A stretch of DNA of 64,000 nt, taken from contig NZ_SBIT01000006.1 of assembly GCF_004765785.1 (NCBI RefSeq), positions 62,001-126,000 of the forward strand, in the 5' to 3' direction. The position numbers and the translations under genes were made by a program. This DNA is from Halorussus ruber (GTDB taxonomy: Archaea > Halobacteriota > Halobacteria > Halobacteriales > Haladaptataceae). Under the pieces are notes generated by a model, which made no database searches, was not told where the DNA came from, and was given only the letters and a program-made list of their open reading frames with translations. Each line of letters opens with the position of its first letter. Positions within the stretch are counted from its first letter, which is position 1. Shown piece by piece: positions 3,235 through 56,967 of this stretch.

Positions 3235-3941
3235 CCCTCTACGGCGTCGGCCTCGGTCCCGGTGACGCCGACCTCGTGACGGTTCGTGGCAAGCGCGTCC
3301 TCGATTCCGCCGACGTGGTGTACTCGCCCGGCCGCCTCTCGCGGTCGGTGGCGACCGAGTACGTCCTCGAGTCCAAAATCGGCGACCTCGACTTCCCGAT
3401 GACCCGCGACCCCGACGAACTCCGGAGCGCGTGGAAAGACGCCGCGGCCGAAATCGCTCCGCGGGCCGCGGACGGGGACGCTGCCTTCGTCACGCTCGGC
3501 GACCCCAACGTCTATTCTACCTTCGGCCACCTCCGGCGAACGATGGACGCCTTCCACCCCGAAGTAGACCTCGAAATCGTGCCCGGCGTGAGCGCGGTGA
3601 CCGCGTTCGCCACCGCGCTGGGCGTCGAAATCGACGCCGGGGCGGGCCTCGCGCTGAAGGAGGCCTCCCGAGGTCGGTCCCCGACCGGGCCGGACCGGAT
3701 GGTCCTGTTCAAAGTCACCGACGCGCCCGCGACCCACGAGGGCCTCGCGGAAGCGGGCTACGACGTGACCTACGGTCGCCGCCTCTACATGGAGCAGGGC
3801 GAGACGATTGTCACCAGCGACCCAGAAGAAATCGCCGAACGCGACTACTACACTCTCGCCTACGCCGAGAAGCGCGGCATCGAGAAGGACCGCGCGACCG
3901 CCGAGTTCGATAGGACAGCGGAAACGGAGGGGTCGGCGTGA
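3231..3941 (+). CDS. cbiL: Cobalt-factor II C20-methyltransferase CbiL
   Basis: A 236-residue tetrapyrrole methyltransferase of the CbiL/CobI family, which adds the C20 methyl group to cobalt-factor II. The N-terminus carries the family's GVGLGPGDADLVT loop at residues 5-17. The middle has LGDPNVYSTFGHL and the VPGVSAVTAFA segment, which together form the SAM and substrate clefts. The length is typical for the family. It overlaps cbiT by 4 bases at the start and cbiF by 4 bases at the end (GTGA), consistent with one polycistronic message. Confidence 0.95.
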   Translation: MTLYGVGLGPGDADLVTVRGKRVLDSADVVYSPGRLSRSVATEYVLESKIGDLDFPMTRDPDELRSAWKDAAAEIAPRAADGDAAFVTLGDPNVYSTFGHLRRTMDAFHPEVDLEIVPGVSAVTAFATALGVEIDAGAGLALKEASRGRSPTGPDRMVLFKVTDAPATHEGLAEAGYDVTYGRRLYMEQGETIVTSDPEEIAERDYYTLAYAEKRGIEKDRATAEFDRTAETEGSA

Positions 3942-4840
3942 CGAACGGCGGCCACGGGTCCCGAGACGCCATGGAGGCCCCCCAAGACGCAATCGACGCC
4001 CAGAGTGACGCCCGCCAGCGGGACCGCGACCGGCGGGTCTACGAACACACCGCTGGCGACGTGCAGGAGGGCGTTCCCTTCATCGGAGCGGGACCGGGCG
4101 ACCCCGGCCTGCTGACTGTGACCGGCAAGCAACTCGTGGAGGACGCCGACCTCGTGGTCCACGCCGGGTCGCTGGTCAACAGCGAACTCCTCGAAGCGTA
4201 CTGCGACGACGCCGAACTGGTCAACTCGGTCGGCAAGGACCTCGAAGAACTCGTTCCCCTGATGCGGGACGCCTACGAGGAGGGCCGGAGCGTGGTCCGC
4301 CTCCACAGCGGCGACCCCGCGGTCTACGGCGCGGCGCTCGAACAGATGGACGCCTTGGAACACGAGGACGTGCCGACCTACCTCGTGCCGGGCGTGACCT
4401 CGGCGTTCGCCGCGAGCGCGACCCTTCGGACCCAACTCACGCTCAACGAGACCGCCAACCACGTCGCGTTCACCCGGCCGCAGGGCAAGACGTTGGACCC
4501 CGAGGACGACCACATCGGCGAGTTCGTGGGGATGGGCGACGTGACGACCTGCATCTACCTCGGCACCCACGCGGTCGGCGAGACGATGGACCGCCTGCTG
4601 GACGAGGGCCACGACCCCGACACCCCGGTCGCGGTGGTCTACCACGCCTCGTGGCCCGACGAGGAGGTCATCGAGGGCACCATCGAGACCATCGGCGAGA
4701 AGGTCGAGGCGGCCGGGTATCGGGCCTCCGCGATGGTCGTCGTCGGCGAGGCCACCACCGGGTCGGGTTACGAGCGGTCGTATCTGTACGGCGACTGGGC
4801 GAACGGCTCCGAGACAGAAGAGGGGTGTTCGGATGACTGA
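3938..4840 (+). CDS. cbiF: Cobalt-precorrin-4 C11-methyltransferase CbiF
   Basis: A 300-residue tetrapyrrole methyltransferase with the CbiF/CobM signature VPFIGAGPGDPGLLTVTG near residues 46-63, the LHSGDPAVYGA loop and VPGVTSAFAASATL. It methylates C11 of cobalt-precorrin-4. The first ~45 residues are a polar acidic extension that bacterial CbiF proteins usually lack. The GTG start is supported by the GTGA overlap with cbiL. Downstream, the operon is interrupted by a 121-bp structured repeat (4872-4992) before cbiG. An ATG at 4833 overlaps this gene's stop but opens only a short frame through that repeat. Confidence 0.95.
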   Translation: MTNGGHGSRDAMEAPQDAIDAQSDARQRDRDRRVYEHTAGDVQEGVPFIGAGPGDPGLLTVTGKQLVEDADLVVHAGSLVNSELLEAYCDDAELVNSVGKDLEELVPLMRDAYEEGRSVVRLHSGDPAVYGAALEQMDALEHEDVPTYLVPGVTSAFAASATLRTQLTLNETANHVAFTRPQGKTLDPEDDHIGEFVGMGDVTTCIYLGTHAVGETMDRLLDEGHDPDTPVAVVYHASWPDEEVIEGTIETIGEKVEAAGYRASAMVVVGEATTGSGYERSYLYGDWANGSETEEGCSDD

Positions 4841-4871
4841 GACTGTCCGCCGAAGCGGGCGGGAAGACCTC

Positions 4872-4992
4872 GAAAGCCCCCGCCCGGTCGCGGTCGCTGG
4901 CCGACATATCTGCGCCTTCCCGCACCACGCGGCGCAGATAGGGGTCGGCCAGACGACCACGGTAAACGCGACCGGGCGGCCCCTTTCAGTCC
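4872..4992 (+). repeat. Dispersed structured repeat, copy A (inside the cobalamin operon)
   Basis: One of four copies in the window of a ~120-130 bp element that begins GAAAGCCC and ends CCTTTCAGTCC. Three nested helices can be drawn. The outer one pairs CCCGGTCGCG with CGCGACCGGG. The middle one pairs CTGGCCGAC with GTCGGCCAG. The inner one pairs ATCTGCGCC with GGCGCAGAT. The other copies are at 11827-11955 (minus), 39849-39970 and 56842-56967. This copy lies between cbiF and cbiG on the transcribed strand, so it should be part of the operon mRNA. Confidence 0.85.
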
Positions 4993-5080
4993 ACCCAGAC
5001 AGTCGAACGTTCAGTCGAGCGCGTTCTCGATGGATGGACTCGCCGAGCGAAACCGAGTTGCAGTCGAAGATACTCGAACC

Positions 5081-6052
5081 ATGAGTACGGACAACAACGA
5101 TTCCAGTAGTAGCTGTAAAACACCCGATTCCGACGGCGAAGTAGCCGAGGAGATAGCCGTCGTCGCCTTCGAGCGCAAGATGGACACCGCCGAGGAGATA
5201 GTCGAGGGAATCGGCGACCGGTACGAGACCGTCGACGTGCTGGAGTACCACGGCGACGTGTTCGAGGAGTACTGGGGCGAGTACGACTGCTTCGTCGGCC
5301 TGATGGCCAGCGGTATCGCCATGCGAAAGACCGCCCACCTCCTCGACGACAAGTGGGACGACCCCGCCATCTGCGTCGTGGACGAGGAACTGACGTGGGC
5401 CATCCCCATCACGGGCGGCCACCACGGCGCGAATCAGGTCGCCGACGACTTGGCCTCGATGGGCGCTGTCCCGGCGATGACCACCGCCTCGGAGGCCGCC
5501 GACAAGCAGGGCGTCGAGAAGCAGGCCAAGGCCCTCGACGCCCACGTCGTCAACGGCGACTCGACGGTCGCCACCAACCTCGCGGTGCTGGACGACGAAC
5601 TCGGCCCCGTAGAGCGCCTCGACGGTCCGAAGGCGGTCCTCGTCGGCGACGACGTGACGGTCCTCAAGCGCAACAAAGACGACGGAGAGGGCGTCGTCCT
5701 CGGGACCGGAAGCGTCTCCGGCGCGACGAGCGAGCAGTTCCTCGCGGCGTGGAAGCGCGCCCTCGAATCGACCGACTACGACCTCGACGACGTGGAGTTC
5801 GTCGCCACCGCGACCCGGAAGGAGGACGAGGAGGGACTCCTCGCCGCGGCCGACGAGTTAGACCTCGGCGTGGTCGCCTTCGAGAAAGAAACCCTCGAAG
5901 ACTTCGAGGGACCCACCCCGTCGAAGTCCAAGGAACTCATCGGTTGGCCCGGCATCGCCGAGGCCTCGGCCATCGCCGGAGGGCGAAACCACGACCTCGT
6001 TGCCGAAAAAACGCGGTACGACGACGCCGTGACCGTGGCGGTGGGGCGATAG
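5081..6052 (+). CDS. cbiG: Cobalt-precorrin-5A hydrolase CbiG
   Basis: A 323-residue protein of the CbiG family, which opens the delta-lactone of cobalt-precorrin-5A and releases acetaldehyde. The N-terminal half has the family's VGLMASGIAMRKTAHLL region and the glycine-rich ITGGHHGANQVADDLA motif. The C-terminal half carries VVLGTGSVSGATSEQFL and the final GWPGIAEASAIAGG segment. The ATG at 5081 is preferred. An in-frame ATG at 5030 would add 17 residues that resemble nothing in the family. This is the only cob gene of the first operon without an overlap to its predecessor, because a structured repeat occupies the gap. Confidence 0.92.
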   Translation: MSTDNNDSSSSCKTPDSDGEVAEEIAVVAFERKMDTAEEIVEGIGDRYETVDVLEYHGDVFEEYWGEYDCFVGLMASGIAMRKTAHLLDDKWDDPAICVVDEELTWAIPITGGHHGANQVADDLASMGAVPAMTTASEAADKQGVEKQAKALDAHVVNGDSTVATNLAVLDDELGPVERLDGPKAVLVGDDVTVLKRNKDDGEGVVLGTGSVSGATSEQFLAAWKRALESTDYDLDDVEFVATATRKEDEEGLLAAADELDLGVVAFEKETLEDFEGPTPSKSKELIGWPGIAEASAIAGGRNHDLVAEKTRYDDAVTVAVGR

Positions 6053-11826: not shown

Positions 11827-11955
11827 GGACTGAAAGGGCGAGTGCGGTTCGCGTTCATTTCAGTCGTCTCAGCGGGCCACTATTCGAGGGGCGAGCGAAG
11901 CGAGGCCCGAGAATATCCCGCTGAGCGACCGCGAACCGCGCGAGGGCTTTCGAGG
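11827..11955 (-). repeat. Dispersed structured repeat, copy D (minus orientation)
   Basis: On the minus strand this copy begins CCTCGAAAGCCC and ends CCCTTTCAGTCC. The outer helix pairs GCGGTTCGCG with CGCGAACCGC, the middle helix CTCAGCGGG with CCCGCTGAG, and the inner helix ATTCTCGGGC with a GC-rich partner ending CGAAT. It shares its outer stem with copy C (56842-56967), whereas copies A and B share a different, equally paired stem. It lies in the convergent gap between the propeller gene and the Ni/Co permease gene. Confidence 0.85.
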
Positions 11956-39727: not shown

Positions 39728-39848
39728 GCGAGGAGTAGGAGTTTGCCCGGTTTAGGGTCGTTGGCGACTAGGGGTGCGATTTTGGACCGTAATTCTGCTC
39801 GGGGTATCCGCAACCGCGAGCCGCAGGGGAGCCGTGATTTCGTCTTCT

Positions 39849-39970
39849 GAAGCCCCCGCCCGGTCGCGGTCGCTGAGTGGGATATTCGGGGCCTCTCCGC
39901 ACCGCCCGGCCCCGAATCGTCGCCCACTCAGACGACTGAACTACACGCGACCGGGCGGCCCCTTCATCCC
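39849..39970 (+). repeat. Dispersed structured repeat, copy B
   Basis: This copy runs from GAAGCCCCCGCCC to GGCCCCTTCATCC, with the outer helix CCCGGTCGCG/CGCGACCGGG identical to copy A. The middle helix CTGAGTGGG/CCCACTCAG and the inner helix ATTCGGGGCC/GGCCCCGAAT differ from copy A in sequence but are fully paired. Both ends are slightly worn: one A is missing in the GAAAG arm, and its partner has changed to match. It sits in the divergent gap before the SDR gene. Confidence 0.83.
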
Positions 39971-56746: not shown

Positions 56747-56841
56747 TGGGAGGCGGATTAGCGGGAAGGCTCTTAGTCGTGGGTGGTTTGGAGTGGGACG
56801 AGAGAATTCAGAGAAGTAACGAGGAGCGCGACGATGGTCTC

Positions 56842-56967
56842 GAAAGCCCTCACGCGGTTCGCGGTCGCTCAGCGACATATCCGGGCGCGCAGTTCTGCGC
56901 GCCCGGATAAGGGTCGGCTGAGGCGACCACGGCCTCCAGCCGCGAACCGCGTTCGCCCTTTCAGTCC
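56842..56967 (+). repeat. Dispersed structured repeat, copy C
   Basis: This copy runs from GAAAGCCCTCACGCG to CCCTTTCAGTCC. The outer helix GCGGTTCGCGG/CCGCGAACCGC is shared with copy D. The middle helix is CTCAGC-GAC with GTC-GGCTGAG, and the inner helix ATCCGGGCGCGC/GCGCGCCCGGAT is the longest of the four copies. It is in the divergent gap between the DEDD nuclease gene (-) and the cupin gene (+). Confidence 0.85.

Follow-up and report, generated by a model that had tools for sequence, protein, structure and literature searches.

A dispersed family of nested palindromic repeats in Halobacteriales, conserved in pairing and candidate for a mobile element

In integron attC sites it is the folded shape of a single strand, with its unpaired spacers and variable terminal hairpin, that is recognised. 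The bacterial REPs, 20-40 bp palindromes with a GTAG or CGTC tag, and the BIMEs are extragenic, reach high copy number and keep their pairing while their sequence varies (PMC2817692, PMC3733652). The PATEs of Haloquadratum walsbyi are dispersed, non-coding elements carrying two near-terminal palindromes that resemble those of IS605 elements; they lack target duplications, occur also in short forms with deleted cores and are hit by small mobile repeats, among them SMR-A, of about 110 bp with inverted ends, which lies inside the palindromes of another element (PMC3119063).

Here we describe a family of ~125-base non-coding elements, named E1, which includes four copies in a 64-kb window (the whole stretch of DNA analysed). 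Its copy numbers run from dozens into the hundreds in the host Halorussus genome and in many related salt-loving archaea. Like the PATEs, E1 is dispersed and palindromic, has core-deleted short forms, shows no clear target duplication and receives insertions of other small repeats, but it consists of one nested palindrome with conserved internal loops. With the REPs and BIMEs it shares high copy number, extragenic location and pairing kept under sequence change, as 95 copies were found with a covariance model in 1.24 Mb read whole and 88 of them (~93%) overlap no gene called by a simple codon-based caller; from the REPs it is set apart by its length of about 110-140 bp, its three nested helices and its GAAAG/CTTTC ends. 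It recalls attC in its unpaired spacers, its variable terminal hairpin and a putative recognition by folded-strand shape, although its copies are dispersed rather than arrayed as cassettes. In its habits E1 resembles a mobile palindromic repeat; on the features tested it is counted with neither the PATEs nor the REPs, because six Halorussus genomes rich in E1 (G041, G058, G097, G114, G130 and G156) gave no match to PF01797, the Y1 family behind those systems (the IS200 transposase of PATE-bearing genomes and the RAYT, or TnpA-REP, of REPs).

Window copies, anatomy and spread of E1

The preliminary description of this DNA had reported a four-copy dispersed element, and all four copies were recovered at near-identical positions. 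Copy A (4870..4992, + strand; 111.5 bits) sits in the gap between genes at 3938-4840 (+) and 5030-6052 (+), and has ends of the first type around an outer helix of the second, CCGCCCGGTCGCG/CGCGACCGGGCGG. Copy B (11827..11953, - strand; 125.6 bits), with outer helix GCGGTTCGC, belongs to the first subfamily and is surrounded by a convergent gene pair, while the second-subfamily copy C (39846..39970, + strand; 87.0 bits) and the first-subfamily copy D (56840..56967, + strand; 121.4 bits) are each flanked by divergent genes as called by the simple codon-based caller; copy D has a hairpin, GGCCTCCAGCC, in its 3' spacer and a perfect inner hairpin. The window holds 4 matches to the core string GGTCGCT-N-ATAT, where 0.05 would be expected, and all four copies fold better than their dinucleotide shuffles (z -3.1 to -8.6). 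Some details of the earlier account need correction: its pairing of A with B and C with D by outer helix is wrong, CCCGGTCGCG being common to A and C and GCGGTTCGCG to B and D; the ends it regarded as fixed are different in C, which has TCTGAAGCCC...CCTTCATCCC; and the extra unpaired base of the middle helix, which it had assigned to C, is in D (GTCGGCTGAG). Its caution that the element gives rise to spurious reading frames was justified.

On the first-read strand, the GAAAG end pairs with CTTTC. Next come an internal loop, where CCC stands on either side, and the outer helix. Inside this lie GGTCG/CGACC, a 3' spacer of ~8-17 nt that often forms its own hairpin, a middle helix that carries a bulged base, and an asymmetric loop in which ATAT stands opposite ATAG and 1-4 further bases. 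The inner hairpin ends in one of about six recurrent tips. Some 36-50 nt of flank on each side are conserved in part. Two subfamilies are distinguished by TCGAAAGCCCTCGC...GCTCGCCCTTTCAGTCC and TTGAAGCCCCCG...CGGCCCCTTCATCCC, and copies of the second often have left-arm half units upstream and 26-28 nt tandem repeats downstream. The left outer arm is repeated ~65 nt upstream at L298, L308, L309, L318 and L283, each time as the helix variant of its own E1 copy, and the tandem repeats (GGCGGTTGGTCNGCCGAGCGTTTGCCGG) follow many second-subfamily copies, for instance from L109:4944 on. At L147:1420-1539 the ends are intact, but a long hairpin (CGTCTCGGG...CCCGAGACG) takes the place of the whole usual interior, which suggests that the E1 frame could hold other palindromes. 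A further hairpin-forming insert, GTGGTTCGAGCGC...GCGCTCGT..CTCGAAAATCTTCGATTTTCGG, occupies the GGTCG part of the element at L112:5544-5720, L118:2470-2644 and L129:10835-11069.

A covariance model and a search of haloarchaeal genomes and Rfam had been proposed in the preliminary description. The model, built from 33 copies, found at least 146 matches in the host genome (4.32 Mb in 31 contigs) among 150 candidates scored and, under strict filters, hit 98 of the 293 genomes and 37 of the 87 genera of the order Halobacteriales; a core-pattern search placed E1 in Halorussus, Halosimplex, Haloarcula, Halomicroarcula, Haloparvum and uncultured Halobacteriales. Rfam gave no match over the window, with chance-level matches only around copy A, and phage records held no match to E1. 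The literature on haloarchaeal REPs, PATEs, SMRs and structured repeats, searched with few subscription papers covered, yielded the Haloquadratum paper as the only close precedent and no description of E1 or of a known family to which it belongs; the preliminary description had likewise named no described function. E1 is thus a real, widespread family for which no description was found in the literature searched. The types of gene gap around its copies follow the background, with no preferred gene context, and a role as terminator or promoter was rejected on this ground.

Paired change and probable exchange of hairpin modules

The three nested helices with paired change that had been noted in four copies were confirmed, and the covariation extends far beyond these. 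Among 33 copies from the host genome, 12 of the 30 pairs have changed in both partners; 98.2% of cells pair, as against 93.8% in shuffles. Among 106 distinct copies from other genomes, aligned by fitting to the E1 model, double changes are seen in 25 of the 30 pairs and in 246 cells, compared with 8.9 and 68 in shuffles; when the partner is slid along this alignment, pairing falls to 32-44%. The paired change exceeds every shuffle and slide control, in line with the original statement that chance hardly explains it. Comparison of orthologous copies gives the same picture: at C1:139666, three species carry E1 in the same gap and orientation, paired throughout, with outer, middle and inner helices that all differ, and in two more orthologous comparisons the pairing is kept while the helices are different.

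Many base pairs differ together in such comparisons, and the recurrent inner tips occur on both outer-helix families, so that exchange of whole hairpin modules between copies probably contributes to the paired change, perhaps together with single-step compensation. Selection on E1 structure, as the preliminary description argued, is likely; the part of the paired change that looks like module exchange is, however, not to be read simply as base-by-base compensation. The family also carries a more general warning: covariation seen among repeats does not, taken alone, point to a functional RNA.

Presence, absence, decay and nested elements

We then compared orthologous gaps with and without E1, in a sample of sites several of which were judged from raw flanks. 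In one species, G136, there is a single E1 copy in 1.2 Mb, and of ~27 orthologous gaps without a copy two hold E1 remnants, implying that some absences are losses. Single copies are also absent from orthologous gaps in G181, MAG SW_6_65_15 and H. amylolyticus. The cleanest empty site, at L030, implies an insert of ~215 bp. No target-site duplication was evident at the presence/absence sites, where the flanks are too diverged for exact placement of the ends, and none of the genome pairs compared is close enough to prove a recent insertion.

E1 also occurs in collapsed forms of 40 nt (L116:12519-12558, L096:5859-5898, L118:2370-2409, L152:2861-2900 and L140:6697-6736) and 34 nt (L113:5866-5899, L145:10668-10701 and L150:15261-15294), which are near-identical across the eight loci. 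For one 34-nt form of the host genome the orthologue in H. caseinilyticus is a full copy, and a deletion between GCGA repeats accounts for the short form; the collapsed forms would reflect either recurring deletions between TCGC repeats or a small form spreading by itself.

A second element of ~55 bp, E2, consists of two hairpins, GGNNGAC-AAACCGC-GTCNNCC and a second one, with paired variation in both stems. It lies within the loops, spacers and flanks of E1 at L146:7969-8156, L108:8690-8873, L137:9541-9777 and L114:8787-8960, and at about 40 further places in 1.24 Mb, often adjoining ACC. In residing inside another element's palindromes it is comparable in habit to SMR-A, but it differs from the ~110-bp SMR-A with its inverted ends in its size and its two hairpins (PMC3119063). 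G136 is poor in E2 too, with counts of 48 v 4 for the E2 motif and 65 v 0 for the E1 core motif.

Mobile repeat, structured RNA or passive palindrome

A mobile palindromic element accounts for the wider data better than a dedicated RNA gene would, based on orthologous gain and loss, the existence of E1-poor species (the Halorussus genomes G136 and G017), the lack of a preferred gene context, the collapsed forms and the nested insertions. By a small margin we think it more likely than not that E1 forms the core of a mobile, non-autonomous palindromic repeat in Halobacteriales, recognised by its folded shape. Judged by the cleanest empty site, the mobile unit would measure ~215 bp with its flanks; additional flank units would make it longer. 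One strand, probably the complement of that read here, would in its single-stranded state fold into a long rod whose nested helices are set with conserved asymmetric loops. A trans-acting factor may recognise this shape, along with the fixed unpaired bases and the ends, and not the letters of the helices. The helices would then be free to change as long as pairing holds, and whole inner hairpins could be swapped between copies, perhaps by gene conversion.

One candidate for such a factor is the Y1 transposase, and a PATE or REP moved by it would account for several habits of the element, since palindromic structure, lack of target duplications, core deletions and small-repeat insertions are all known from the PATEs (PMC3119063). 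The host genome encodes six intact Y1 transposases, and a short resemblance to E1, GAAAGCCC, at one IS605 end (L033) was an early lead. Nevertheless, Y1 transposases do not track E1, the six E1-rich Halorussus genomes without PF01797 being incompatible with an IS200/IS605 transposase as a required mover, and no full E1 copy stands at an IS605 end in the transposase loci read; dependence on IS200/IS605 is accordingly very improbable. A weak 55-nt similarity near the L034 transposase was examined and dropped. Among other features expected of transposons, inverted ends are weak: some first-subfamily copies have GTGTTCAGATA at about -36 and its complement at about +50 (13 of 66 v 6 of 341 in the background), and no transposon partner sharing these ends was found. 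Neither did 1.24 Mb and 72 named loci contain a cargo-carrying form, with half elements around a gene. It is improbable, too, that E1 is a passive palindrome whose arms correct each other by template switching or intra-palindrome conversion, with no need for selection on shape. The length of the palindromes would suit such a process, as would the deletions between short direct repeats (GCGA/TCGC), which are expected from replication slippage over hairpins; however, correction between arms would erase the A opposite GGG, the bulged A and the CCC/CCC loop, all of which are kept across copies and genera, and it does not predict the asymmetry of mismatches between the strands.

That asymmetry bears also on the main rival, a structured RNA that would work within transcripts with the complement as the sense strand, such as an attenuator or a stabiliser of 3'-UTRs, roles in which some REPs act. 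In the helices of 193 distinct copies the read strand has 49 A.C and 13 G.T mismatches, and 63 C.C against 4 G.G; counted by distinct neighbour context, A.C stands at 32 v 9 for G.T (p=4e-4) and C.C at 18 v 4 for G.G. On the complement A.C and C.C become G.T and G.G, which are better tolerated. In model-fitted alignments, which favour G.T, the asymmetry is weaker, 47 v 34 with the omission of one helix-end pair that alone contributes 46 G.T. The RNA free energy is lower for the complement in 185 of the 193 copies, and among the 73 co-directional gaps those with the complement as sense strand number 49 v 24 (p=0.005), a bias that could also mean an RNA function and so counts against the mobile-repeat reading. 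These sequence patterns suggest, rather than prove, that the complement is the folding strand, and if only one strand is functional it is probably this one. The asymmetry is suggestive of a folded single strand and does not tell RNA from DNA, given that single-stranded DNA is also expected to tolerate G.T. Against a structured RNA stand the 44 copies in divergent gaps, as in the background, conserved flanks without an AT-rich, promoter-like stretch, the near-absence of E1 from G136 and the lack of an Rfam match; overall we consider it rather unlikely.

Returning to the mobile repeat, we can tentatively extend it to a possible new archaeal class comprising E1 and E2, in which a non-Y1 factor would bind one folded strand regardless of helix sequence, modules would swap between copies, and loss of the factor might lead to joint loss of both elements, as in G136. 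That both elements are scarce in the same species brings the factor responsible within reach of a search. At ~77 copies per Mb and roughly 220 bp each, E1 would account for something like 1-2% of certain haloarchaeal genomes, a share at odds with its absence from the RNA family library and from the literature searched. With its paralogues and orthologues in the hundreds, the family offers a natural experiment in sequence change that keeps structure.
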